DNA of 56,874 nucleotides from a virus, in IMG/VR virus record IMGVR_UViG_3300020472_000030, positions 1 to 56,874 of that record. One strand, given 5' to 3'. Positions 1,710-25,424 of this stretch are shown piece by piece. The translations under genes were made by a program, and so were the position numbers. Under the pieces are notes generated by a model. That model did not search any database. It worked only from the letters and a program-made list of their open reading frames with translations, and had not been told where the DNA came from. Position 1 is the stretch's first letter; the number at the start of each line of letters is the position of its first letter.

Positions 1710-2018
1710 TTATATTGTGAAGCTTACTCCGCATCCGCATGCATCCTGTATATTAGGGTTAGTTACTGTAAGGAACGATCCCATCAACTCTTCGTTATAA
1801 TCTATTGTACTGCCCGCAACTGCAAAGGTAGCAGCATCACTAACTACTAGCATGTCCTCTACTATTCTATCAGAATCTGCTGGATGATCGGTATACCCCC
1901 AATCATATTCAAACCCCGCACAGCCACTAGGCTTAAGATGCAAACGTATATATTTTTGTTTCTTTTCAATACGTTTATAGTTAAGATACTTCTTCGCACT
2001 GGCAGTTATGGTCAGCAT
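1710..2018 (-). CDS. iscA: A-type Fe-S carrier protein (IscA/ErpA-like)
   Basis: HesB/IscA-family protein of 102 residues. The three ligand cysteines of A-type carriers are all present: C33 (in PSGCAGFEY) and the C-terminal CGCG pair C94/C96, in the context NPNxxxxCGCGxSF shared by IscA and ErpA. The family receives or delivers Fe-S clusters from the IscU scaffold to client apoproteins. ATG at 2018 has a strong GAGGGG site 4 bases upstream and lies inside the 3' end of iscU (38-base overlap), so the two are translationally coupled. IscS, HscA/HscB and ferredoxin are absent, so host partners would be needed. Confidence 0.92.
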   Translation of the reverse strand: MLTITASAKKYLNYKRIEKKQKYIRLHLKPSGCAGFEYDWGYTDHPADSDRIVEDMLVVSDAATFAVAGSTIDYNEELMGSFLTVTNPNIQDACGCGVSFTI

Positions 2019-2391
2019 TTTTCCCCTCGTAATCGCTTATCGCGGCTTTTATAGCGTCCTCAGCGAGAACGCTACAATGTATCTTTACGGGTGGGAGGCT
2101 AAGTTCTTCAGCAATCTCGGTATTCTTGATTTCACAAGCATCGCTAAGGCTCTTTCCCTTGACCCATTCTGTAAGCAGAGAGCTTGATGCAATGGCGGAT
2201 CCACAACCGTAAGTCTTGAATTTAGCGTCTTCAATGACGCCTTTTTCATTAACTTGTATTTGTAGTCGCATAACGTCTCCGCAAGCAGGTGCCCCAACCA
2301 TGCCCGTACCCACGGATCTAGATTTGTCATCAAGTCTTCCAACGTTTCTTGGTTTTTCATAGTGATCCAGTACTTTTTCAGAGTACGCCAT
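1981..2391 (-). CDS. iscU: Fe-S cluster assembly scaffold IscU
   Basis: Complete IscU (136 aa). Cluster ligands C37, C63 and C106, the neighbouring D39 and H105, and the chaperone-recognition motif LPPVK (99-103) occupy the same numbered positions as in E. coli IscU. The first 124 residues align without gaps to the E. coli sequence as I recall it. The start at 2391 (MAYSEKV) matches the family and overlaps the polA stop by 14 bases. A short extra C-terminal tail carries a CQC motif (NCQCEEVS) not found in bacterial IscU; it coincides with the iscA translation start. The role is assembly of [2Fe-2S]/[4Fe-4S] clusters in the host cytoplasm, probably with host IscS and HscA. Origin by recent transfer from a gammaproteobacterium is inferred. 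Confidence 0.96.
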   Translation of the reverse strand: MAYSEKVLDHYEKPRNVGRLDDKSRSVGTGMVGAPACGDVMRLQIQVNEKGVIEDAKFKTYGCGSAIASSSLLTEWVKGKSLSDACEIKNTEIAEELSLPPVKIHCSVLAEDAIKAAISDYEGKNADHNCQCEEVS

Positions 2392-4648
2392 ATTGTTTCT
2401 CAAATTTGCCCATTGAGTAGTCTTCTCCAATATCGAAGTCACACCCAACTGGAGCTCCTGGAATGTTAATTCCTCTATCTAGTTGAATCCAATGCTGTAA
2501 TTTCTCACAGTATGTATCTATTTCTTCCTCTGGCACTTCTGCAAGAATGGAATCGTGTACTAATGCAAATATACGAGCCTTCATTTTACTAGCTTGTATA
2601 TCTGCGTGCATGTCTATGGCACCAAGTAAGTTAATATCAGAAGCAGCAGACTGGACCAAAAAGTTAAGACCAGACCTAATGCTATGGCTCTTGATGCCCG
2701 CGTCTGAAGATTTGACATTGGGAAGTCTCCTTTTTCTTCCGAAGAAGCTGTAAACGAACCCATTTTGCTCAATGAATTTATGATTCGTGTCAATCCATTT
2801 TTTAAGCGCATGAAAAGATTGAAAATAATCATCGATAACCTCTTTCGCTTCACTTTGACTAAAATATTTACCGGAGTCTTTAGTTACTTGTTCACTAATT
2901 TTCTTCGGACCCGCTCCGTACATAATACCAAAGGTTACTGCTTTTGCAGCTTGTCTTTGAGTAGTGTAATATTCTGCTACATCCTCTACTTCGCAGGGTA
3001 GTTTAAATACTGTTTTCGCAATACTACTATGGAAATTCCCACCTGAGCGAAACACTTCCATAAGTGCTTTATCTTCAGCAAGAACTGCGGCAACATAAAC
3101 TTCTGCTGTAGTTAAGTCCATTGCAACAATTCTATGTCCCCAGGCCGCTCTAATACAGCCTTTTACAGCTGGGTTATCCCGAGGAAGCTGTTGCATATTA
3201 AGCTTACCGCTAGAGCTGAGCCGACCGCTAGTAGTACCATGAAGATTAAACGACGTGCGGAGTCTGCCATCTCTATCCAACTGCGGTATGATTTTGTCCA
3301 AGTAAGTATTCTTAATTTTGGATCGTTGACGTATGTCAAGGATAAGTCCAGGAACTTCGGATTGACTACCGAGCTCTCTGAGTACTTCTGCATCCGTAGA
3401 GTGCGCTCCCGTTCCTGTTTTCTTTCCAGTAGGCTGCAAGCCAACGTGGTCAAAAAGAAGGGAACGTAGCTGCACAGTAGAGTTAGGATTAAAATCTTTA
3501 TCATGGTGTGATTCCCATTGTCTTATAGCTGGATTTTCATATAACTTATCAACTGCTGCATCTATTTGTGTTTGCATAAGTTCTTGTGAGGCATATAACC
3601 TTTTTTTGTCGAAAGGAACACCATTATCCTGTGCGTCTGTAAGAAATCGAGTACCAGGAATAAGTATATTATCATATACCCACTTTAATCTTTTATTTTC
3701 TTTTATCTTTTTAAATTTATCGTAAACAAGATAAGTACATAGAGCATCCATAGCTGCATATGTTTTCATGACTTCAAAAGGAATAGACCCCCATTGAAAG
3801 TCGTTCTTTAAAATACCGTTTTCTTTACGGTAATTGTCCATCCAGTCATACATGGGCTTTTCATAATCCCCATAGGGGGTATACTTAATTGCTAACGTCT
3901 TGAGTCCATGATTTCCTGGGTTCTCATTAACTAAGTAGGATAATAACATAGTATCTTCAAACTTTGGAAATTTAAAGTTAAAATGATACTCAAAAAATGC
4001 CATATCAAACTTAGCGTTATGAAATACTACTGTTTTTGCATAGAAGAGTTTCTGAAGTAGTTCTTCAGTTTCTTCATCAAAGCAATCTGTAGATATATAC
4101 GCTCCTCTGTGACCGTCGTAACAAAGTGATATACCAAGTATATGCCCATCGCGAGGGTACAAGCCAGTTGTTTCACTATCAAGCGCAACAACACTGCCAT
4201 CGTGCTCAATGGCTGCTCGAATGAAATTGTTACAGTCTCCTGTGTCGTCAATACCGAATGCAATCTTTTCATCTATTACCACCTCCTTAATTTCACCACT
4301 AATATACTTAATGATGCTTTCTTTAGATTCATCCCAAGTTTTCCTAGCTTCAGGCTTGAACTTGAGCATAGCCGGATTAATAACAGGCAAGAATTTATCT
4401 TCGACTTTCTTGCCAGAGTACTCTGTCACAGAATTAATTTTTGTAAAGTATTTTAAAGACTCACTACCTACTAGTATAACCCAGTCATATACACTCTGAT
4501 CAATACTAATATCGCAGTCTCGTTTTAATACTTTCTTTATGTTAGGATCAGAACAGAGCTGGTATTGATCAAAATCAAAAGCACCATCGAACTCTTTTCT
4601 GTAGTCCGTCCTACTCGGTTTAGTTTCTACTAAGGCTACTTTAGCCAT
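2378..4648 (-). CDS. polA: Family A DNA polymerase with 3'-5' exonuclease
   Basis: Replicative phage PolA (756 aa). The N-terminal DEDDy exonuclease shows ALDSETTGL, FHNAKFDMAFF and TYAAMDALCTYLVYD. In the polymerase domain motif A is near residues 504-520 but reads DLTTAEVYV rather than the usual DxSxxELR; motif B at about 564-580 is RQAAKAVTFGIMYG, with Phe at the position equivalent to E. coli F762; motif C near 697 is HDS instead of HDE. There is no 5'-nuclease domain. ATG at 4648 has AAGGAAGAA upstream. It overlaps the primase stop by 8 bases and iscU by 14, giving one transcription and translation unit with the replication genes. Confidence 0.95.
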   Translation of the reverse strand: MAKVALVETKPSRTDYRKEFDGAFDFDQYQLCSDPNIKKVLKRDCDISIDQSVYDWVILVGSESLKYFTKINSVTEYSGKKVEDKFLPVINPAMLKFKPEARKTWDESKESIIKYISGEIKEVVIDEKIAFGIDDTGDCNNFIRAAIEHDGSVVALDSETTGLYPRDGHILGISLCYDGHRGAYISTDCFDEETEELLQKLFYAKTVVFHNAKFDMAFFEYHFNFKFPKFEDTMLLSYLVNENPGNHGLKTLAIKYTPYGDYEKPMYDWMDNYRKENGILKNDFQWGSIPFEVMKTYAAMDALCTYLVYDKFKKIKENKRLKWVYDNILIPGTRFLTDAQDNGVPFDKKRLYASQELMQTQIDAAVDKLYENPAIRQWESHHDKDFNPNSTVQLRSLLFDHVGLQPTGKKTGTGAHSTDAEVLRELGSQSEVPGLILDIRQRSKIKNTYLDKIIPQLDRDGRLRTSFNLHGTTSGRLSSSGKLNMQQLPRDNPAVKGCIRAAWGHRIVAMDLTTAEVYVAAVLAEDKALMEVFRSGGNFHSSIAKTVFKLPCEVEDVAEYYTTQRQAAKAVTFGIMYGAGPKKISEQVTKDSGKYFSQSEAKEVIDDYFQSFHALKKWIDTNHKFIEQNGFVYSFFGRKRRLPNVKSSDAGIKSHSIRSGLNFLVQSAASDINLLGAIDMHADIQASKMKARIFALVHDSILAEVPEEEIDTYCEKLQHWIQLDRGINIPGAPVGCDFDIGEDYSMGKFEKQYGVL

Positions 4649-6171: not shown

Positions 6172-6200
6172 ATTATACTAGAAATACATACAAATGTCAA
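6172..6200 (-). promoter_or_regulatory. Sigma-70 promoter for the primase-polA-isc-phoH unit
   Basis: On the minus strand TTGACA and TATAAT are separated by 17 bases, within the recurrent context TTCTTGACAT...CTAGTATAATATA that is found across this genome. It lies 25 bases upstream of the gene starting at 6147. Confidence 0.9.
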
Positions 6201-7625: not shown

Positions 7626-8357
7626 TTAAGATGCTGCTGCTTTTTCCTTTTTAGCTGCACCATCATAGTCAGACGCTGTCAAACCTCTTCGGGTCAACAT
7701 AGTCTTAACACCGCGTGCAGTTTTGCCAATCGACTCTGCGATTGCTTCAACTGTCATGCCAGAAACATCTCCAAGTTCCTCAAGAGGATCGCTCTTGTTA
7801 GAGCCCTTGGTGTGCTCCTGACGGGGTATTGCATCAATATCACCAGAACGCAACAGGCTGAGAGCCTTGCCACGTACGCTATTTACGCTACGATCTAGAG
7901 CTTCTGCAATCGCCTCAACGAAAGCACCGTCATTAACCATAGATACGAACTTAGCTTCCTCATCGGGAGAGTAAGTTCTAACAGTCTCCACTTTGGGAGC
8001 TGGCTTAACATGGTCAGTAAGTTCCATAGAAAGGATCTTACCTTGGATAGACTTAGCACTAAATGCTCCGTCTTCGAAGTTAGAAGCAATCTGAGCATAG
8101 GTATACTCACCGCTATTGTCTGTGACAAAAGCAGAAAGGGTAGCTTCTTGAGCTTCAGAAAAAGCACGAGTGCTCTTTGCAGAAGCAAGTTCTACGTCAA
8201 AACCCATTTTTCTCAGTTTGCTAGAAACTGACCGTGTAGTAGTCTCAAGCTGGTCTGCAGCTTCTGCTACAGTAGCTTGTGATACTGGGGATTCATCACC
8301 GACGAAATTAGTGAGCTCGTCGGTACGCTCATCTGTCCACTTAGGCAACGTTGCCAT
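7626..8357 (-). CDS. Multi-repeat helix-turn-helix protein
   Basis: A 243-residue protein built from about four helix-turn-helix-like units. Recurrent pattern: a Trp/Tyr-containing opener, then V/IAEALxxSVxSVRGKxxxL (for example LDRSVNSVRGKALSL and IGKTARGVKTMLTRRG). The C-terminus is Lys/Ala-rich. The single-unit paralogues at 10830, 20316, 22002 and 25134 carry the same core. The family is common in marine phages; DNA binding is inferred from the fold-like pattern only. AGGAG precedes ATG 8357, which overlaps the ligase C-half gene by 17 bases. Confidence 0.75.
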   Translation of the reverse strand: MATLPKWTDERTDELTNFVGDESPVSQATVAEAADQLETTTRSVSSKLRKMGFDVELASAKSTRAFSEAQEATLSAFVTDNSGEYTYAQIASNFEDGAFSAKSIQGKILSMELTDHVKPAPKVETVRTYSPDEEAKFVSMVNDGAFVEAIAEALDRSVNSVRGKALSLLRSGDIDAIPRQEHTKGSNKSDPLEELGDVSGMTVEAIAESIGKTARGVKTMLTRRGLTASDYDGAAKKEKAAAS

Positions 8358-9111
8358 TATAGTCTCCTATCAATTCATTTAGACTTGTAATAATTGTTAT
8401 GCCCTTTTCTCGGGCTTGTTTTGTTTTTGCAGATTCTATGCCTGATTCATTTACTAAGAATATTACATCCTTAGCCATAGTTGCTTTTACTTGGTATCCT
8501 GCATAAGACAGGGCTTTTGTAGCATCTGCTTTAGTTTTGAAACTCGAAAGCTTACCACTAATACATACCGCTCCTTTGGTTTCAGTTGCGACTCTAGAAG
8601 CTTCAAATTCCCAGCTAAAGGGAAGGTCATTTAAACCACATTGAAACTCATCGTAGTACCAGCGAAGTAAGTTTTCCGTTGCTTTCGGCCCTAGACCTGC
8701 TGCTTTACACTTGTCCTCATCAATGTCAATGATATTCTTGAGCTTTGTGGACAATTTAGTTGCTGCCGTCTTTCCTATTAAAGGAATACTAAATGCTGGT
8801 AATAAAACATTCAAACTACTGTTCTTAGAATGATCTATTTCAACTACTAGCTTTTTTGCTAGTTTTTCAGAGGCAAGAGCATATTTACAAGTATTATAGT
8901 CTAAACTATAAATTTCGTGAAAGTTAGAAAGATCCAACTTTTCTATGCTCTTGGGGCCAAGCCCTTTGATCTTTAGGGTCTTTGCAAAATGCTCTATCCG
9001 TTTCTGGATTTGTGCAGGACACAAAGAGTTAACGCAATATAGCAAATCGTTTTGCCACTCAAGTGAGCTTTCACAAGAGGGACAAAATTCCGGTGCTTCT
9101 ATTGCCTGCAT
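8341..9111 (-). CDS. ligB: NAD+-dependent DNA ligase, C-terminal half (Zn finger, HhH, BRCT)
   Basis: The second half of a split LigA (256 aa). It has a four-Cys zinc finger (C10, C13, C26, C31), then helix-hairpin-helix motifs (IKGLGPKSIEKL, IPLIGKTAATKL, AAGLGPKATENLL), and a C-terminal BRCT domain beginning near KGAVCISGKLSSF. It lacks the nucleotidyltransferase core. ATG 9111 has AGAGGA upstream. A dedicated promoter lies in the 59-base gap separating it from the N-half gene. Split ligases with two subunits are known from T5-like phages, so this is a two-subunit enzyme rather than a decayed gene. The symbol follows that usage and is tentative. Confidence 0.88.
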   Translation of the reverse strand: MQAIEAPEFCPSCESSLEWQNDLLYCVNSLCPAQIQKRIEHFAKTLKIKGLGPKSIEKLDLSNFHEIYSLDYNTCKYALASEKLAKKLVVEIDHSKNSSLNVLLPAFSIPLIGKTAATKLSTKLKNIIDIDEDKCKAAGLGPKATENLLRWYYDEFQCGLNDLPFSWEFEASRVATETKGAVCISGKLSSFKTKADATKALSYAGYQVKATMAKDVIFLVNESGIESAKTKQAREKGITIITSLNELIGDYNGNVA

Positions 9112-9137
9112 AAAGATTCCTCTGAAATTGAAAACAT

Positions 9138-9166
9138 ATTATACGAAAATTTAGGTTCCATGTCAA
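9138..9166 (-). promoter_or_regulatory. Sigma-70 promoter between the ligase halves
   Basis: TTGACA, 17-base spacer, TATAAT on the minus strand, directly upstream of the C-half ligase gene. It allows the two subunits to be produced independently. It overlaps no coding sequence. Confidence 0.9.
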
Positions 9167-9169
9167 GAA

Positions 9170-10120
9170 TTATTTTTCCTCAACTCGTCGGACAATACGA
9201 GGAATAATTTCACCGCTTCGTATGACCTCGACTTGGCAACCAATTTCAAGACCTAACTCCTCAATGTGAGCCATATTGTGTAAGGTTGCTCTCTGAACAA
9301 GTGCATCCCCAATCATAACAGGGCTAAGTATTGCTACTGGTGTAACAACACCTGACTTACCTGTTTGCCACTCAACTCTCGATAGCGTGGTTACTACACC
9401 TTCTTTTTGAATTTTAAAGGCAAGCGACCCTCTAGGGTGATGAGAAGTAGAACCTTGTTTAGTCCAATATTCAATATTATCTATTCTGTATACTTCGCCA
9501 TCGGTTGGGTACTGTGACGCATCAACTGAGTTAACAGTTGAAAAACCAAGACTCTCTAACCAATTAAGAAGTACGCTCCAAGACTCGATAAATCCATGCG
9601 GTCTTAGCTCATATGCAACAAACCGTAGTTCATTACAACGAGGTATAAAGTCCCTAACTAATTTTAAGTTAAGCGACCCCGCCGCATAGTTACGAGCATT
9701 AGGTATAGAACTAGGAGCAACTACTTCGCCATCAATTTGTATTTTTTTATGAAAGTTGATGGTCTCTGGAACTAAATAGCTCATCTTATTTGAGATATCT
9801 ACTCCTATTTTTCCGTTTCCACGGGTAGTTGCTCTTACAAATTTCCCCTTATCGTATAATATTGATACTGCCGAACCATCCAACTTTGGACTAGAAATAA
9901 CTTCTTGGCCTTCATGTGAAGCGATCCAAGAACCTAATTCATCCTCGTCAAAAGTCTTTTTAAGTGACAGCATTGGAAATGAATGACGTACTCCATTATC
10001 TGGAGTATAACCTACAATTTCATCCTCATACAAGGCGTCCCACTCGGCGTCAGTTAAGGCACTGTCACCACCTTCGTAGTACATTCTCGCTGCTGATTTT
10101 TTGTTGGTATTCTCATTCAT
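9170..10120 (-). CDS. ligA: NAD+-dependent DNA ligase, N-terminal half (adenylation and OB domains)
   Basis: The catalytic half of a split NAD+ ligase (316 aa). A shortened domain Ia is visible (YYEGGDSALTDAEWDALYEDE; the Tyr/Asp motif contacts NMN), then the adenylated lysine in SPKLDGSA (K79), GNGKIGVDIS, IDGEVV, LAFKI, and an OB fold ending VIRSGEIIPRIVRRVEEK. The usual zinc finger, HhH and BRCT domains are in the next gene. ATG 10120 is only 9 bases after a -10 box and lacks a Shine-Dalgarno, so the message is nearly leaderless. Confidence 0.92.
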   Translation of the reverse strand: MNENTNKKSAARMYYEGGDSALTDAEWDALYEDEIVGYTPDNGVRHSFPMLSLKKTFDEDELGSWIASHEGQEVISSPKLDGSAVSILYDKGKFVRATTRGNGKIGVDISNKMSYLVPETINFHKKIQIDGEVVAPSSIPNARNYAAGSLNLKLVRDFIPRCNELRFVAYELRPHGFIESWSVLLNWLESLGFSTVNSVDASQYPTDGEVYRIDNIEYWTKQGSTSHHPRGSLAFKIQKEGVVTTLSRVEWQTGKSGVVTPVAILSPVMIGDALVQRATLHNMAHIEELGLEIGCQVEVIRSGEIIPRIVRRVEEK

Positions 10121-10829: not shown

Positions 10830-11174
10830 CTAGTCAGCCATTAGGCCCGCAAAGTATTGTGCGGCTTTGCCAGTCATTTTGGATATAATATCCATGTCTG
10901 GCTCTAAGCCCTTGTCTGTAATAGCAGCTACTAATGAGTCTTGTGCTGCCTGCTTAGAAACTCGAGAGCCACCTGTAGAAGCTCCCCCATTCCCAGTTGC
11001 TTGAGCCTTTTTTACATAGACTCCAGCTTTTGTCAAAATCATACGAACCCCGTTTGGGCTTTCCTGAAGTTCGTCTGCTATTTCTTTTACTATCTCCATT
11101 GAAGTTTCAGGAGTTGGATCCTGTGCTTCATACATCTCTACGGCTTGCGCCTTTTTGTCGTCATCCCACGCCAT
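10830..11174 (-). CDS. Small HTH-family protein (114 aa)
   Basis: Member of the phage HTH family amplified in this genome: N-terminal WDDDKKAQAVEMYEAQDP, then VKEIADELQESPNGVRMILTKAGVYVKK, and a variable C-terminal tail. Start set at ATG 11174, with AGAGGA upstream and about 70 bases downstream of the predicted transcription start; the frame opens further to 11279, but that stretch overlaps the promoter. It is expressed alone between promoter 11251-11279 and terminator 10794-10823. Likely a small DNA-binding protein; target unknown. Confidence 0.75.
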   Translation of the reverse strand: MAWDDDKKAQAVEMYEAQDPTPETSMEIVKEIADELQESPNGVRMILTKAGVYVKKAQATGNGGASTGGSRVSKQAAQDSLVAAITDKGLEPDMDIISKMTGKAAQYFAGLMAD

Positions 11175-11250
11175 TTTGCGTTTTCCTCTTGTTTGTTGTT
11201 GCTGGAAATAAAATCGGTCGCCCATTGGTTTCCTCATTTTTAATAGTAGT

Positions 11251-11279
11251 ATTATCTCACGAATTAACGTTTGTGTCAA
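11251..11279 (-). promoter_or_regulatory. Promoter, GATAAT class
   Basis: TTGACA-17-GATAAT on the minus strand with the context CGTGAGATAATA, a sub-class seen again at 19338, 21198, 21511 and 22377. It drives the HTH gene ending at 10830. Confidence 0.85.
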
Positions 11280-12228: not shown

Positions 12229-12468
12229 TTACCCCCAAGGTAACAAGGTCATACCAATCATATTTAGTATAACCTCAATTAAAATAAAAAATATTAAGCC
12301 TACTCCTATCTGCCATGCCCACCACTTCCAGCCTTCTAAATTAGAAGCCCAAGTAGCTAATTTACTTTCTCTGGCTTTGTCATAGGCTCCACTCTTTTCA
12401 CCTATTCTTTCAGCCCAATAATTTGGACTAACTATGTTCTTTAGTCCTTTGAGTATTTTAACTATCAC
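12229..12468 (-). CDS. Small membrane protein (79 aa), GTG start
   Basis: An amphipathic, charged N-terminal half is followed by one clear membrane segment (WQIGVGLIFFILIEVILNMIGM). GTG at 12468 overlaps the stop of the upstream 50-residue gene (GTGA), so translation is probably coupled; no independent Shine-Dalgarno at good spacing. It could be a holin or lysis regulator, as it lies in the same strand unit as the lysis genes, but that is only positional. Confidence 0.6.
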   Translation of the reverse strand: MIVKILKGLKNIVSPNYWAERIGEKSGAYDKARESKLATWASNLEGWKWWAWQIGVGLIFFILIEVILNMIGMTLLPWG

Positions 12469-12617
12469 CTTTTAGGCCGATACCAGTTTCTACATTGAAC
12501 CATATTATCAAATTCACCCGTTGAGACTCCCTGTCTGCAGGTTTCATTCAGTTCTTTATTGCCAGGCTCAAAAATTGCAACCACGGTTAAAACCCCAATA
12601 ATTATTAGATAATCCAT
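12465..12617 (-). CDS. 50-residue protein with N-terminal hydrophobic segment
   Basis: ATG 12617 has AAGGAG 6 bases upstream. The N-terminus is hydrophobic (DYLIIIGVLTVVAIF), then a polar part with two cysteines in CRQGVSTGEFDNMVQC. It is probably a membrane-anchored or exported small protein with a possible disulfide. A 16-base stretch of its coding sequence recurs with one mismatch at about 19930-19945. It is coupled to the next gene by GTGA overlap. Confidence 0.65.
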   Translation of the reverse strand: MDYLIIIGVLTVVAIFEPGNKELNETCRQGVSTGEFDNMVQCRNWYRPKR

Positions 12618-12632
12618 TTGTACTCCTTACTT

Positions 12633-13205
12633 TTACCGAGATATTCGTTGTTGGTAATCTGCTTCATCTTCACGCCACCAAGGTGGCTTGTCTCGGTACT
12701 TCCATGAAGCAAACGTTGCTTTATCTTTGTGATAAAATTTTCGGTATGATACTACTGCATCAACTCCTTTGAGTTCCTCAGGCATAGCTTGAGCGAAAGG
12801 TGTGAGTCCAATTCGTGGTATAGATAAGGGCTCGGGTAGCTTGAGTATGACGTCATGCACTGATCTATGGCTTTTACCGTATCGGTATCCATACTCATCA
12901 TTGAGTGCAGTTGCATAACAGTGTAACCACTCGAAATTATCCATGCTAGTACGACTCCAGATAGTACAAGGATGGTTGTGCATTGTAGGTAAGTAAGGGA
13001 AGTCCCTTGGCTCATTTTGTTTTTTCTCTCTTAATAAAGCTAACTGTTCCTTGGTCAGCTTCTTGGGTACATACCCTAAGTATTTATCAACCCACATATT
13101 TGTACAAAGCATTTGAGCCGCCTCTAAAGGCATTTTGACAATATGTTTGTCAACATGATACTCTGCACATCTATCATGGTTTTGGTCTAATATAAAGATA
13201 TTCAT
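12633..13205 (-). CDS. Conserved phage protein of unknown function (190 aa)
   Basis: Begins MNIFILDQNHDRCAEYHVDKHIVKM, a pattern I recognise from many T4-like and marine phage genomes, with HNHPCTIWSRTSMDNFEWL and a C-terminal FASWKYRDKPPWW. The conserved His/Cys/Asp/Trp residues suggest an enzyme or nucleic-acid-related protein, but no activity is established to my knowledge. It is a full-length family member. ATG 13205 follows the previous stop by 7 bases. Confidence 0.7.
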   Translation of the reverse strand: MNIFILDQNHDRCAEYHVDKHIVKMPLEAAQMLCTNMWVDKYLGYVPKKLTKEQLALLREKKQNEPRDFPYLPTMHNHPCTIWSRTSMDNFEWLHCYATALNDEYGYRYGKSHRSVHDVILKLPEPLSIPRIGLTPFAQAMPEELKGVDAVVSYRKFYHKDKATFASWKYRDKPPWWREDEADYQQRISR

Positions 13206-13212
13206 AAGCTAC

Positions 13213-13689
13213 TTACTTTATTTCCTTAGCTTGACATGCCATTGCTTCAACCATAGGAAGTAAGTTTTTTGCAATTAAATTATGTTCCTTTAAAATATCA
13301 AGCGATACCATACGCATTGAACTTTGTTGCTCATAAATACGCTCTATAACTTTTTCCGTACAGACAGGCGAAGGTTCAATTTGATACGTGTCAGCTATTC
13401 GCTCCTTAATCTCTAATTCGTTAGCTACTGCTATTAGTTTCTTTTTTAGTGCAGCTCCTTTGGTTAATTGCTCTGATACTCTCCAATCTGTTACTTTCTG
13501 AATAAATTGAGTAATAGTAGAATGTTTTTCACCCATCTTTAAATGTCGTTGTACAAGATTCTGCTGTTCATAAGTCCATACTAACTTAAGCATTTCTTCC
13601 AGAGTTACTTTAGAGTAGCCTTCTCTCTCATTCTTTTGTGCGACTGTCAGTGCACCCAACAGTATGTTTAACGTCTCTTCGTGTTTCAC
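13213..13689 (-). CDS. Hypothetical helical protein (158 aa), GTG start
   Basis: GTG at 13689 with AAGGAG 7 bases upstream. The protein is predicted to be mostly helical, with many Glu/Lys/Gln/Leu and coiled-coil-like segments (TLEEMLKLVWTYEQQNLVQRHL). First gene after promoter 13750-13778. No known domain. The start codon lies in an imperfect palindrome (TGTTTCACCGTGAAACT) that may be a protein-binding site or coincidence. Confidence 0.6.
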   Translation of the reverse strand: MKHEETLNILLGALTVAQKNEREGYSKVTLEEMLKLVWTYEQQNLVQRHLKMGEKHSTITQFIQKVTDWRVSEQLTKGAALKKKLIAVANELEIKERIADTYQIEPSPVCTEKVIERIYEQQSSMRMVSLDILKEHNLIAKNLLPMVEAMACQAKEIK

Positions 13690-16775: not shown

Positions 16776-16804
16776 TTGACATGGAGGCTAACTTTTAGTA
16801 TAAT
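16776..16804 (+). promoter_or_regulatory. Sigma-70 promoter for the bS21 operon
   Basis: TTGACA-17-TATAAT on the plus strand. The -10 ends 6 bases before ATG 16811, placing the expected transcription start on the start codon. Confidence 0.92.
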
Positions 16805-17633: not shown

Positions 17634-18014
17634 ATGGACGGAACTAACTTTGAATTAGTTGGCGATTTTATGGAATCAATGGATCAAGAGGTCCGTATAA
17701 AGCCATCTTTTCCAGACGAGGGGATACAAAGACTTAGGCTAGACTTAATAGAAGAAGAACTAGATGAGCTTCAATATGGTATTGATAACAAGAGTTTAAT
17801 AGAAGTTGCAGACGCACTTACTGATCTACTGTACGTTGTGTACGGAGCAGGACATGCATTTGGAATAGACTTAGATGATTGTTTTCACGAAGTACATCGA
17901 AGCAATTTGAGTAAGCTAGGTCCGGATTTCAAGCCAATAAAAAGGGAGGATGGGAAGGTTCTTAAACCTGCCACATACTCCCCGCCTGATCTTCGTACTG
18001 TGCTATCTCTCTGA
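17634..18014 (+). CDS. MazG-like nucleotide pyrophosphohydrolase (PRA-PH type)
   Basis: 126-residue all-helical NTP pyrophosphatase. The metal-binding pattern EEELDEL (about residues 41-47) and EVADALTDLLYVVYGAG (ExxD) is clear. This family hydrolyses (d)NTPs or ppGpp-like substrates; phage versions may alter nucleotide pools. TAGGAG lies 7 bases before ATG 17634. Its last bases overlap the convergent SleB gene. Confidence 0.85.
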   Translation: MDGTNFELVGDFMESMDQEVRIKPSFPDEGIQRLRLDLIEEELDELQYGIDNKSLIEVADALTDLLYVVYGAGHAFGIDLDDCFHEVHRSNLSKLGPDFKPIKREDGKVLKPATYSPPDLRTVLSL

Positions 18015-19200: not shown

Positions 19201-19330
19201 ACGCTCTCCTGTGTTTGCGATAACCACGCTTCGACCTTTTCTTTCGGTCTGTCTCTTTTCTACTGCGAAAAGGGCTATCCGAATCAAAAAGGATAAAATG
19301 CGATCTTGTTTTGTTTCTCTTAATTTTCAT
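19193..19330 (-). CDS. 45-residue highly basic microprotein
   Basis: ATG at 19330 lies 7 bases after the CATAAT box of promoter 19338-19366, so the message is leaderless. The sequence FILFDSDSPFRSRKETDRKKRSKRG resembles a family of tiny basic proteins (LFxxDSPFxxR...KK) that I associate with marine phages. It overlaps the next gene by 8 bases. Function unknown; RNA or DNA binding is likely from charge. Confidence 0.65.
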   Translation of the reverse strand: MKIKRNKTRSHFILFDSDSPFRSRKETDRKKRSKRGYRKHRRAYD

Positions 19331-19337
19331 ACTGCGT

Positions 19338-19366
19338 ATTATGTCACGATTTAGCTTACAAGTCAA
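19338..19366 (-). promoter_or_regulatory. Promoter, CATAAT/GATAAT class
   Basis: TTGACT-17-CATAAT on the minus strand with CGTGACATAATA context, driving the microprotein and downstream genes to 18003. Confidence 0.82.
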
Positions 19367-19463
19367 GGATTATTTTTTTCTTGTCCCTAGAAAAATGAAA
19401 AATATTTTTGTCAGGAGCAGCGCGCCCAGATACTTTCTTCAACTACATGCTCAAAAATAATAC

Positions 19464-19492
19464 TTGTGTTATGCCAAAAAGTGTGATAAAAT
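19464..19492 (+). promoter_or_regulatory. Possible plus-strand promoter before the structured element
   Basis: TTGTGT-17-TAAAAT on the plus strand, weaker than the other promoters but with the same spacing. Expected start near 19500, about 40 bases before the long stem-loop at 19542-19652. No gene follows on this strand. Confidence 0.45.
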
Positions 19493-19520
19493 AATACTCA
19501 AATCGTAAGATGATCTAGTC

Positions 19521-19541
19521 AATCGACAACTTCTTATAACC
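19521..19541 (+). repeat. Direct repeat, left copy, flanking the structured element
   Basis: AATC-GACAACTtcTTATaACC here matches AATCtcGACAACTaTTATgACC at 19683-19704. The two copies bracket the stem-loop at 19542-19652. The left copy abuts its 5' base. Confidence 0.6.
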
Positions 19542-19652
19542 TATGCTGGCGAAAAGAGTTTGAATATTTATGCAATTGGAGTGGAAGCGGAATTAAGGGA
19601 GCTTCCGTCTCCAAATCCATAATATTATGAAAAGTGCTCTTGAGTCAGCATA
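19542..19652 (+). ncRNA. Candidate structured RNA: long imperfect stem-loop
   Basis: A nested set of complementary segments spans 111 bases: TATGCTG (19542-19548) with CAGCATA (19646-19652); AAGAG (19554-19558) with CTCTT (19637-19641); AATATTtATG (19563-19572 region) with CATAATATT (19618-19626); TTGGAG (19576-19581) with CTCCAA (19609-19614); GGAAGC (19583-19588) with GCTTCC (19601-19606), closing a 12-base loop. Internal loops are small. No credible reading frame covers it on either strand, and it lies in the largest gene-free stretch of the window (19331-19829). Strand is inferred from the weak upstream promoter and downstream hairpin; it could function as DNA or from the other strand. 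Not tRNA or tmRNA. Confidence 0.6.
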
Positions 19653-19682
19653 ATCCCAAATCCTACCGATTCAATTTTAAGG

Positions 19683-19704
19683 AATCTCGACAACTATTAT
19701 GACC
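19683..19704 (+). repeat. Direct repeat, right copy
   Basis: Right partner of 19521-19541. Its 3' half forms the left arm of the perfect hairpin at 19695-19729. Confidence 0.6.
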
Positions 19705-19729
19705 GCGTAAATTCGATACGGTCATAATA
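19695..19729 (+). terminator. Perfect 11-bp hairpin, possible 3' end of the structured RNA
   Basis: TATTATGACCG/CGGTCATAATA, loop of 13. On the plus strand it is followed by ACCCCGCCTTTTATT, a moderate T run. On the minus strand the stem contains an ATG behind AGGAGG, which could start a 20-residue peptide, so a translation-control hairpin is an alternative. Confidence 0.45.
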
Positions 19730-19829
19730 CCCCGCCTTTTATTCCTCCTATTTATCTAAAAATTCGTCTTAATTTTGTCCAATTCGCCACAATTCAAAAT
19801 TTTTTTACCCGTATTCCTTTTCCACAATT

Positions 19830-19931
19830 TTAAAAGATTGTACTTAAGGCCGTTAGCAGGATAAATATAGGTATGGTTATTATAGCGATCAGGGTTAACA
19901 TCTGTAGAAACTGTTCAATAAATTCATCCAC
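19830..19931 (-). CDS. 33-residue hydrophobic microprotein, GTG start
   Basis: GTG at 19931. After a short acidic N-terminus (DEFIEQFLQM) it is one membrane helix (LIAIITIPIFILLTAL). There is no good Shine-Dalgarno. The start region repeats a 16-base piece of the gene at 12465-12617 with one mismatch, so this may be a remnant of a duplicated gene rather than an independent one. Confidence 0.4.
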   Translation of the reverse strand: MDEFIEQFLQMLTLIAIITIPIFILLTALSTIF

Positions 19932-19946
19932 CCGTTGAGACCCCGC

Positions 19947-20030
19947 TTAAAGGTTTGTAAATGCGTGTAAGAATATAGCACCCGCAAAGATTACCAACCC
20001 CGCTACGACTATTAATTGCTCATCCCACAT
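19947..20030 (-). CDS. 27-residue single-pass membrane microprotein
   Basis: ATG at 20030 with GGAGGGG 5 bases upstream, overlapping the stop of the MazG-like gene. Sequence is WDEQLIVVAGLVIFAGAIFL plus a short polar end. The strong ribosome site supports translation. It could be the N-terminal half of a frameshifted paralogue of the 50-residue protein at 12465-12617. Confidence 0.5.
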   Translation of the reverse strand: MWDEQLIVVAGLVIFAGAIFLHAFTNL

Positions 20031-20319
20031 ATTCCCCTCCGTCAAATTCCTCTCCAGAATTTCGATTTTTAACTGTATTGTACCCATTTTCTTCATAAAA
20101 GTACCGTCCGTATTTAGCAATAGTCTGCCACTTTTTCTTTAGAACTGCGTCTCGGTTTACAATACCATGTTCAGTCATTAAGTGTATAAAAGCCATTACG
20201 TCCCCGCACTCTTCTTCTAACCTGCCTATCCATTCTTCGTCTTTGTGCCTTAAAACCTTCGCACAGGCTTGCGTTAGCTCACCACATTCTTCCATGAGCT
20301 TAATATAGACATTATTCAA
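20020..20319 (-). CDS. MazG-like nucleotide pyrophosphohydrolase (99 aa)
   Basis: A second, shorter all-alpha NTP pyrophosphatase. The metal-binding motifs EECGE (residues 10-14) and EEECGDVMAF are intact. Family role: hydrolysis of NTPs to NMP and PPi. It overlaps the upstream HTH gene by 4 bases. It differs in sequence from the 17634 enzyme, so it is not a recent duplicate. Confidence 0.8.
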   Translation of the reverse strand: MNNVYIKLMEECGELTQACAKVLRHKDEEWIGRLEEECGDVMAFIHLMTEHGIVNRDAVLKKKWQTIAKYGRYFYEENGYNTVKNRNSGEEFDGGEYVG

Positions 20320-20630
20320 TTTAATTCCTTAAGAGATTCCTCTAGTTTTTTGAGCGTTGCTTTTGGAGCTTTTTCCAAGCCCGCCAGAGACTCCACTTCG
20401 ATTCCAAGAGAATCAGCGATATTTGAAACGATTTCCACTTTTGTGACAGGTAATTCCCCAGTCTTAGTTTTATAGATTTCACGTCGATATACTCCCTCCC
20501 TTGAAAGTTTTCCTATTATTGATTTTATACTCTTGTTGAGTTCACTAGCCAAAGATTCAACAGTTGCCCTATTAGGGTTGCTTCTATACTCCTTAACTAT
20601 GTGTTGAGTCTGTTCCTCACTGTAGTTCAT
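20316..20630 (-). CDS. Small HTH-family protein (104 aa)
   Basis: Paralogue of the phage HTH family: NYSEEQTQHIVKEYRSNPNRATVESLASEL, NKSIKSIIGKLSREGVYRR, then a C-terminal module KVEIVSNIADSLGIEVESLAGLEKAPKATLKKL shared with the copies at 22002 and 25134. The N-terminal part looks like an HTH and the C-terminal part a small helical dimerisation module. Overlaps the upstream gene by 14 bases. Confidence 0.78.
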   Translation of the reverse strand: MNYSEEQTQHIVKEYRSNPNRATVESLASELNKSIKSIIGKLSREGVYRREIYKTKTGELPVTKVEIVSNIADSLGIEVESLAGLEKAPKATLKKLEESLKELN

Positions 20631-22001: not shown

Positions 22002-22319
22002 TTAAGAAATAGCTGCTAAAAGCTTTTCCAAGTCACCGAAGCCAGCCTTGTTTAGGCTTGCGAACTCAACATTGAGTTGCGCTTCGATTTGTGCTACCAA
22101 ATCAGCTTTTCTCACCTGAGGTGGACGCTTGGTAGGCTTAGCTTGGGCAACGTATACACCCAGAGCAGAGAGCTTAGCGATAACACTTCGCTCAGTTTTG
22201 TCAAAGTCCAACGCGAGTTGATTAACAGTAACGCGAGTTGGGTTAGCTTCATAAGCTGAAACCATGCTGTCGATAACTTCCTGAGGGTAGTTATTGCTTT
22301 TGTTTGCTGTCATAGTCAT
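22002..22319 (-). CDS. Small HTH-family protein (105 aa)
   Basis: Paralogue with NNYPQEVIDSMVSAYEANPTRVTVNQLALDF, DKTERSVIAKLSALGVYV and the C-terminal KADLVAQIEAQLNVEFASLNKAGFGDLEKLLAAI module. Start at ATG 22319, which has GGGAGA upstream. A second possible start at ATG 22370 lies 6 bases after the -10 box and would add 17 residues (MKLRATLNKFFGIGRPN) from a leaderless message. Probably DNA binding; targets unknown. Confidence 0.78.
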   Translation of the reverse strand: MTMTANKSNNYPQEVIDSMVSAYEANPTRVTVNQLALDFDKTERSVIAKLSALGVYVAQAKPTKRPPQVRKADLVAQIEAQLNVEFASLNKAGFGDLEKLLAAIS

Positions 22320-22376
22320 ATTAGGTCTCCCGATCCCAAAAAATTTATTTAATGTTGCTCTCAATTTCATAATACT

Positions 22377-22867: not shown

Positions 22868-23038
22868 ATAAATTTGCGCCTAATCGTGAAAAAAACGCAA
22901 GGGAATTCCGGGGGGCCGCGCGCGGGGTCGTGAAGTCAAGTAATTTTCGCACATTTGCTGCAATTTTCATCAATTTTCGGCGGGGATGAGCAGACTTCCC
23001 GAATTATAAAGAATTTTGTGCGACCCCGCAAAAATTTC

Positions 23039-23067
23039 TTGACATGCGTCGCTTTTGCACGTATACT
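23039..23067 (+). promoter_or_regulatory. Plus-strand promoter in repeated unit, copy 1
   Basis: TTGACA-17-TATACT, followed by GGCGCGGGG. Points toward the 3' end of PPK2, so it would make a short non-coding or antisense transcript. Confidence 0.7.
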
Positions 23068-23152
23068 GGCGCGGGGACGCTTCGGTTTTGCACTCTGGCG
23101 CAGGAAGACCTGGGAAAGTTAAAAAAATTTGGTCCACACCCGCAAAAAAGAC

Positions 23153-23181
23153 TTGACATTCTTCGCTTTTGCACTTATTAT
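23153..23181 (+). promoter_or_regulatory. Plus-strand promoter in repeated unit, copy 2
   Basis: TTGACA-17-TATTAT, followed by GGCGCGAG. Spacer CGCTTTTGCAC is shared with copy 1, 114 bases away. No gene follows on this strand before 25.9 kb. Confidence 0.7.
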
Positions 23182-23314
23182 GGCGCGAGCAACACCATTT
23201 AAATACTACTTCACTTTCGCACTGGCGCCCGCGCGCCAAAAATCTGGATTTTTCAAGATTTTTCGAGGGGCTGGAGGCCGCATTTTTAAAGGGCTGTAGA
23301 GCAGGGTCGCGGCA

Positions 23315-23330
23315 TGTTTCACGTGGAACA
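23315..23330. promoter_or_regulatory. parS: Perfect chromosomal-type parS site (ParB-binding)
   Basis: TGTTTCACGTGGAACA; on the other strand TGTTCCACGTGAAACA, an exact match to the bacterial chromosomal parS consensus TGTTNCACGTGAAACA. It covers the last codons and stop of the PPK2 gene. No ParB or ParA homologue is present in the window, so a host ParB is the likely binder. With 15 fixed bases, a chance match on both strands of this window is expected about 1 in 10,000 times at even base composition. Confidence 0.85.
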
Positions 23331-23927
23331 AACCGCGCAGAGTAGCTGTAATAATCGCGTGATTCCTTTTTGCTTATCATTGTAGTTGACAGTATGCCAA
23401 TCCTCGCCTACCACGCGCTCTTTTAATAGTGTCATGCGGTCATAGTGAGAAAGCGCATTTTCGTCATTTTGCGAAAATTTCCAGTAAGTAAGCGGTGAAA
23501 TTTTTCGCGCTTGTATTCGCTTTTTTTGTTCCGCTTCAGAAATCGAGAGCCAGAATTTAATGAAAGTGACATCGTGTTGAACCTCATTTTCCCAGTATTC
23601 GTATCTGTCTAAAAAAGCGTTGTATTGGTTTTGAGAGCACCAGCCATTCATATGTTGAACCATCGCGCGGCTATACCATGATCGGTCATAAAAAACGATT
23701 TGACCTTGCGCGGGCATTTTTCCGTTCCACCATTGCCACCAATTAGCCATTGCGGTAACGGATGGCTTTGTTGATGGCACGATGCTATACCATGCCGGAT
23801 TTAAGTATTCGGTAACTGCCCGAATTGTTGAAGATTTTCCGGCGGTATCGCGTCCCTCTAAAACGACAGCGATTTTATTTTTGTTCGCTTCCGCGATTTG
23901 GTTTAATTGTGCTTGTAATTTTTTCAT
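23319..23927 (-). CDS. ppk2: Polyphosphate kinase 2 (PPK2 family)
   Basis: 202 residues. P-loop GRDTAGKS at 25-32 (family GxDxAGKG), Walker B YDRSWYSR at 80-87 (family DRSWY.R), lid region KFWLSISEAEQKKRIQAR and SPLTYWKFSQND, closely following PPK2 order. PPK2 transfers phosphate between polyphosphate and nucleoside mono- or diphosphates, usually generating ATP or GTP. Start at ATG 23927 overlaps the upstream stop (ATGA). The gene ends within the parS site. The Gly-to-Ser change in the last P-loop residue is a variation to note. Codon use is GCG/CGC-richer than in the replication genes, suggesting transfer. Confidence 0.88.
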   Translation of the reverse strand: MKKLQAQLNQIAEANKNKIAVVLEGRDTAGKSSTIRAVTEYLNPAWYSIVPSTKPSVTAMANWWQWWNGKMPAQGQIVFYDRSWYSRAMVQHMNGWCSQNQYNAFLDRYEYWENEVQHDVTFIKFWLSISEAEQKKRIQARKISPLTYWKFSQNDENALSHYDRMTLLKERVVGEDWHTVNYNDKQKGITRLLQLLCAVCST

Positions 23928-24950: not shown

Positions 24951-25137
24951 ATAAGTATCCTATAATTCCAATCGTATTAAGTATCATTAAGTTATATAGC
25001 TTACAGGAGTGCGCTTGCAAAGTCAACAAAGCCAATCCAGATATAGCTAACAATTTTCCGATAGTTGAGTCAATTAGGAAGGGAGCGACTGCCATGCAGA
25101 CAGTCCCAACCCAAGCCGAGAAAGTAATGAGCATCAA
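24934..25137 (-). CDS. Small membrane protein, half-SWEET-like (67 aa)
   Basis: Three hydrophobic stretches (FSAWVGTVCMAVAPFLI, IGKLLAISGLALLTLQ, YNLMILNTIGIIGYLYALYF) with the short loops of a SemiSWEET-type bundle, similar in design to the C-terminal part of 17005-17445. It overlaps the HAD gene by 17 bases and the HTH gene by 4. Transport of a sugar or a membrane signalling role is unproven. Confidence 0.6.
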   Translation of the reverse strand: MMLITFSAWVGTVCMAVAPFLIDSTIGKLLAISGLALLTLQAHSCKLYNLMILNTIGIIGYLYALYF

Positions 25138-25424
25138 GCGATGCTCATTAGTAAGGCAGACAAGGAGCGAGTAGTCGCACCTTCCAAACCATCGAGATTT
25201 TCGCCCTGTAGAGCGTTCTCGATAGCTTCCACCAATTCTTTTTTGGTGGATTTTGCAGAAGCATTTTTTGCTTCTGGCTTCTGGTACAAGCCGAGAAGCA
25301 CAGCTTTTGAGATGACGGAACGAACCGACAAACCAAATTCTGAAGCGAGAGAATCCGCGACAGTGCGAGTGATGGGAGCCGAATCCATCATTTGAGCGAC
25401 CATTTTTTCAGTATAGTTAGACAT
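25134..25424 (-). CDS. Small HTH-family protein (96 aa)
   Basis: Paralogue with SNYTEKMVAQMMDSAPITRTVADSLASEF, GLSVRSVISKAVLLGLYQ and the C-terminal KKELVEAIENALQGENLDGLEGATTRSLSALL module. AGGAG lies 8 bases before ATG 25424. The start of the HTH is shorter than in the other copies. It heads the unit with HAD and PPK2 and may regulate it. Confidence 0.78.
   Translation of the reverse strand: MSNYTEKMVAQMMDSAPITRTVADSLASEFGLSVRSVISKAVLLGLYQKPEAKNASAKSTKKELVEAIENALQGENLDGLEGATTRSLSALLMSIA

Follow-up and report, generated by a model that had tools for sequence, protein, structure and literature searches.

What is encoded at positions 19464-19729 of the record IMGVR_UViG_3300020472_000030? The record was checked by computation to be a viral contig, and all of its 56,874 nucleotides form the window analysed here. 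The initial annotation had placed a structured non-coding element in a gene-free gap at this site, and had proposed a new phage RNA, a translation or packaging element, or a small mobile element with duplicated ends. The gap indeed holds no listed open reading frame (ORF) of at least 60 amino acids across 19288-20019; it sits inside a block of leftward genes, with two small leftward ORFs (32-33 amino acids) at its right end. Our findings leave us nearly certain that the stretch is a conserved functional RNA gene. We hold with moderate confidence that its product is a structured non-coding RNA that acts in trans, is about 300 nt long and is predicted to run from ~19498 to 19806 on the plus strand and to have its own promoter. 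The parts of this gene are the following.

19464-19492, plus strand: promoter, with a -35 element TTGTGT (19464-19469), a 17-nt spacer and an extended -10 element TGA-TAAAAT (19487-19492), from pattern scans.
19498-19541, plus strand: 5' leader, with a predicted start at ~19498-19500 and conserved GTCAATCG, from the alignment.
19518-19520, plus strand: 5' strand (GTC) of the closing helix P1, from an all-column scan.
19542-19652, plus strand: P2, a long five-helix stem whose internal loops are conserved and whose upper helix is variable, with the apical loop GGAATTAAGGGA, from covariation and folding.
19668-19686, plus strand: P3, a small hairpin (GATTC/GAATC) adjoining P2 in a three-way junction, with counterparts in other subfamilies and partial covariation.
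19689-19691, plus strand: 3' strand of P1 (GAC), which pairs with GTC 19518-19520, from the all-column scan.
19695-19729, plus strand: P4, a hairpin with a perfect 11-bp stem (19695-19705/19719-19729), kept in the nearest relative.
19761-19806, plus strand: 3' tail, AATTCGTCTTAATTTTG to CAATTCGCC with a T-run, conserved in the alignment; probable 3' end region.

The 111-base stem of five nested pairings described in the annotation was recovered by folding as P2, with -40.7 kcal/mol and a z-score of -5.4 that none of 200 shuffles equalled; the interval 19464-19729 as a whole had a folding z-score of -3.9. The perfect 11-bp hairpin and the weak plus-strand promoter before the element, both noted earlier, were found again as P4 and at 19464-19492. 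The annotation had also suggested a covariation analysis of homologues, with loss of the pairings counting against the element. When this was run, the pairings turned out to be preserved. In a seed alignment of 11 members, 26 of the 35 pairs of P2 showed compensatory changes and 95.6% of the cells were paired. The covariation score was 0.581, as compared with 0.199 after shuffling (reached in 0 of 500 trials) and at most 0.139 when the partners were slid. An alignment of 29 distinct rows gave a score of 0.784 versus 0.211 shuffled, with 31 of 35 pairs changed on both sides and 94.7% of cells paired. As this second alignment had been fitted to the structure, the weight rests on the seed figures and on independent folds: plain folding recovered P2 in 44 of 48 non-redundant members, ~45 nt past the predicted start and with 30 to 47 pairs. 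Among the alignment cells, G-U was present 52 times and A-C twice, which indicates that selection acts on the plus-strand RNA.

The closing helix P1 emerged from a comparison of all 5' columns with all 3' columns that used no prior structure. One column pair was 97% paired with six compensatory changes, which was not attained in any of 300 shuffles. This column statistic establishes covariation for at least one pair of P1. As read in the sequences, P1 is RRUC with GAYY, 3-4 bp long, and closes a three-way junction around P2 and P3. P3 and P4 had partial covariation support across subfamilies, and the counterpart of P4 elsewhere in the family is a GACC..GGTC hairpin with conserved GATAATCAAATAA. 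We also considered a long-range helix joining the 5' end to the P4 loop, which is a perfect 7-9 bp in some subfamilies; it is not claimed, because 34 of 500 permutations were as good.

In total, 84 distinct sequences of this RNA were collected; all come from phages that are uncultured, mostly marine and distant relatives of T5. In the relative L002, the element is ~93% identical and the neighbouring genes ~80%. Fifty related records yielded further, more diverged copies, in some of which only promoter and 3' end can still be recognised. No part of the family is better conserved than the promoter, which precedes nearly every member although it is too weak for a consensus promoter scan. Its exact pattern, GCCAAAANGTGTGATAAAAT, matched 20 contigs among 2.9 million viral contigs, and the RNA was present downstream in all 20. 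A looser promoter pattern matched 73 contigs, ~62 of which were members, and a pattern for the P4 loop matched 15, all members, three of them with another promoter sequence. The covariance model built from the 11-member seed also detected subfamilies that this seed did not contain, and their distance from the promoter was the same. Nine promoter-like matches in 84,980 prokaryote genomes were taken as chance; none fits this model. No match was found by nucleotide similarity search of phage isolates with three members, nor by the covariance model in three T5-like isolates. The RNA was not matched in three longer relatives either, but these are uninformative, since their contigs stop close to where it would be expected or are missing the marker genes.

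The position of the RNA in the phage genomes provided a further line of evidence. Its neighbourhood in the window is as follows.

17634-18014, plus strand: F2, a MazG/PRA-PH-like nucleotide pyrophosphohydrolase; upstream neighbour that often adjoins the RNA.
19338-19366, minus strand: divergent early-type promoter (TTGACT, 17, CATAAT, extended -10) that serves the leftward genes, outside the RNA.
20316-20630, minus strand: F0, a helical protein of 104 amino acids with a possible helix-turn-helix; convergent neighbour, syntenic with the RNA.

When loci were retrieved through F0 alone, the RNA not being used, it was present at 65 of 74 testable loci, always convergent with F0. At the remaining nine, a similar promoter occupied the equivalent place. 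Three kinds among these nine were folded: L242 had a clear long stem (z -7.4), and L267 (z -4.0) and L234 (z -2.4) were less clear. These counts, together with the similar promoters, suggest that the RNA is a core gene of this T5-related phage group, as it appears to be from the genomes compared. Promoter, P1, P2, P3, P4 and tail all lie on one strand, convergent with F0. The proposal of a new phage RNA was thus borne out: the pairs covary, the G-U pairs are strand-specific, the promoter is conserved and the locus is syntenic.

We examined how such an RNA might act. Transcription would start at a promoter of its own and probably belongs to the early phase of infection, because this promoter resembles the leftward early promoters of the phage, to which its layout is related. 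The transcript would fold into a three-way junction formed by P1 (RRUC/GAYY), P2 as a rigid long arm and the hairpin P3, followed by P4 and the conserved tail. The internal loops of P2, carried on an arm of variable sequence, and the conserved single strands near the junction would then bind at least one protein, from the host or the phage, and the protein-bound RNA could serve as a scaffold or a decoy while the cell is taken over. We consider it somewhat more likely than not that the RNA works by protein binding: the small internal loops of P2 recur while the helices change in sequence, and pairs that covary in the absence of a conserved sequence agree better with a protein that recognises shape than with pairing to one target.

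Several points weigh against this. No protein partner was identified, and the neighbour F0 weakly resembles a DNA-binding protein. The transcript from ~19498 onward is a prediction from sequence. Its 3' end, which we place at the tail (19761-19806), is uncertain in position: no standard terminator was found there, and T-runs occurred in 30 of 48 members versus 28.9 expected by shuffle. A purine-rich apical motif recurs, in 29 of 52 versus 18.5 by shuffle, a modest excess. Finally, the data do not separate protein binding from pairing to host mRNAs.

Pairing is the alternative that survives best, and we regard it as possible though rather unlikely. The unpaired 5' leader, the tail and a CCTCC-like stretch at ~19745 would pair with host or phage mRNAs, and P2 would only stabilise or present them. 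Such a role would agree with the sequence conservation of the unpaired segments and with the presence of an anti-Shine-Dalgarno-like CCTCC in the window and in several members. Yet CCTCC is not universal, antisense targets in the phage's own genome were not convincing (scattered 11-mers only), and the detail of selection on the loops and helices of P2 exceeds what a stabiliser needs.

We also considered the possibility that the RNA mimics a regulatory RNA of the host, for instance 6S RNA, a bacterial RNA that binds RNA polymerase, and so holds this enzyme. Both are 200-300 nt long, so that their size is broadly similar, and have a long irregular hairpin and their own promoter, which is of the early type in the phage. 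However, no 6S match was found in Rfam even at relaxed thresholds, and P2 has small internal loops only, without a large central bubble. Moreover, the new RNA is phage-borne, and 6S RNA has no counterpart to the three-way junction or to P4. Such mimicry is therefore improbable.

The remaining explanations fared worse. Inverted repeats acting as DNA, in an origin, a packaging site or a recombination site, would account for the long stem and the fixed genomic place, but neither for the excess of G-U over A-C cells nor for a conserved promoter directed into the element, and we deem this very unlikely. Nothing in the analysis speaks for the packaging element that had been proposed. A cis-acting leader or attenuator of a plus-strand gene, or an mRNA for a small peptide, is compatible in principle with a promoter followed by structure. 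It is slightly less credible still, since no plus-strand gene lies downstream of the RNA, the next conserved gene being the convergent F0 on the minus strand; the suggestion of a translation element acting in cis is unlikely for the same reason. No coding frame is conserved in the RNA either: the longest plus-strand frame starting in it has 29 amino acids and extends beyond the RNA end, and relatives differ by indels of all lengths. As to the direct repeats said to bracket the stem, they are present in the window (GTCAATCGACAACTTCTTATAACC at ~19518-19541 and GGAATCTCGACAACTATTATGACC at ~19681-19704, imperfect and with an indel), but they exceeded all shuffles in 1 of 48 non-redundant members, which is not the window, and this lack of conservation makes them incidental. 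The small mobile element with duplicated ends that they had suggested is refuted by synteny, the place beside F0 being occupied in every testable locus, by the absence of the repeats in relatives and by the failure to find an empty site.

What is new is the RNA family; phage RNAs as such are already known. Rfam 15 gave no family match in the window. For the element, a search relaxed to E values of 10 returned chance-level T-box and SCARNA7 scores only, and no match was obtained at E up to 1 for the RNA of ten relatives. ARAGORN found no tRNA or tmRNA in the window, and no description of the family was found in open-access papers. GOLLD and ROOL are large structured RNAs discovered by comparative genomics, some of them in phages; they are stand-alone genes and their function was long open. 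The new RNA shares with them its discovery by covariation and its stand-alone gene, but it is much smaller, has other hosts and another architecture, and does not match them in Rfam 15. Like the packaging RNA (pRNA) of phi29, it is a phage-encoded structured RNA with a conserved shape and a variable sequence; unlike it, it belongs to an unrelated phage group, has no Rfam match and is encoded far from the terminase. The manA and wcaG motifs of marine metagenomes and cyanophages are structured RNAs that act as leaders of metabolic genes (PMC2864571). The new RNA resembles them as a structured RNA of marine phages, but has neither a downstream gene nor an Rfam match. A long variable stem is also found in the RNAs of retron/DRT and type III toxin-antitoxin systems. 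Yet the record has no reverse transcriptase (a search of all of it with RVT_1 was negative, the controls working), and no defence protein was detected among the ten neighbours tested, save for one weak coiled-coil-type PADLOC match.

More tentatively, the RNA might be a core early RNA of the whole uncultured marine T5-related group. It would then represent a new class, a ribonucleoprotein scaffold or decoy directed against a host factor; an arms race would drive drift in the sequence of its arm, the shape staying fixed. It is rare for a stand-alone structured RNA to be conserved throughout a group of lytic phages, and the known examples do unusual things. The family provides a search model for metatranscriptomes and raises the question of which marine bacterial protein or RNA is acted on.

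The tail motif occurs once only within the window. The predicted structure of F0 (predicted local distance difference test score of 90) had no significant match to a known fold; the hits were weak and of the DNA-binding type. The clustered F0 family has four copies in this phage, all on the minus strand (10830-11279, 20316-20630, 22002-22370 and 25134-25424), small and possibly helix-turn-helix; the copy adjoining the RNA is highly conserved (KSIIGKLSREGVYRRE). With one member as query, tblastn found no relative of F0 in sequenced isolates. Near-consensus sigma-70 promoters were noted at 6200, 9166, 11279, 13778, 16740, 19366, 21226, 21540 and 22405 on the minus strand and at 16776, 25888, 28592, 32520, 40563 and 54244 on the plus strand. 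These dispersed promoters come in two flavours, likely two classes: those directed leftward have a GTGnGATAATA extended -10, the others GTATAAT.

The record itself carries a siphovirus gene set (TerL, portal, capsid/protease, tape measure, PolA, primase, DnaB, a D5-like regulator and a split NAD ligase). The isolates closest to it are T5-like, infect Vibrio, Aeromonas and others, and share 43-49% protein identity with it; the record is presumably of marine origin, judging from sample numbers and relatives. The NAD-dependent DNA ligase is encoded by two adjacent genes (8341-10120, minus strand), one for the adenylation and OB domains and one for the C-terminal part. An auxiliary metabolic gene for a NifU-like iron-sulfur cluster assembly protein is present at 1981-2448 (minus strand). 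The 983 bp at 12235-13217 are 96% identical to L002 in surroundings of ~80%, reflecting strong conservation or recent exchange. Finally, the GC-rich and probably non-coding region 22880-23340 contains four CTTCGCTTTTGCACT-like 15-mers, a 14-nt inverted repeat and a pair of 66-nt repeats (79%) with a strong plus-strand promoter in each copy, and is a candidate origin or regulator array.
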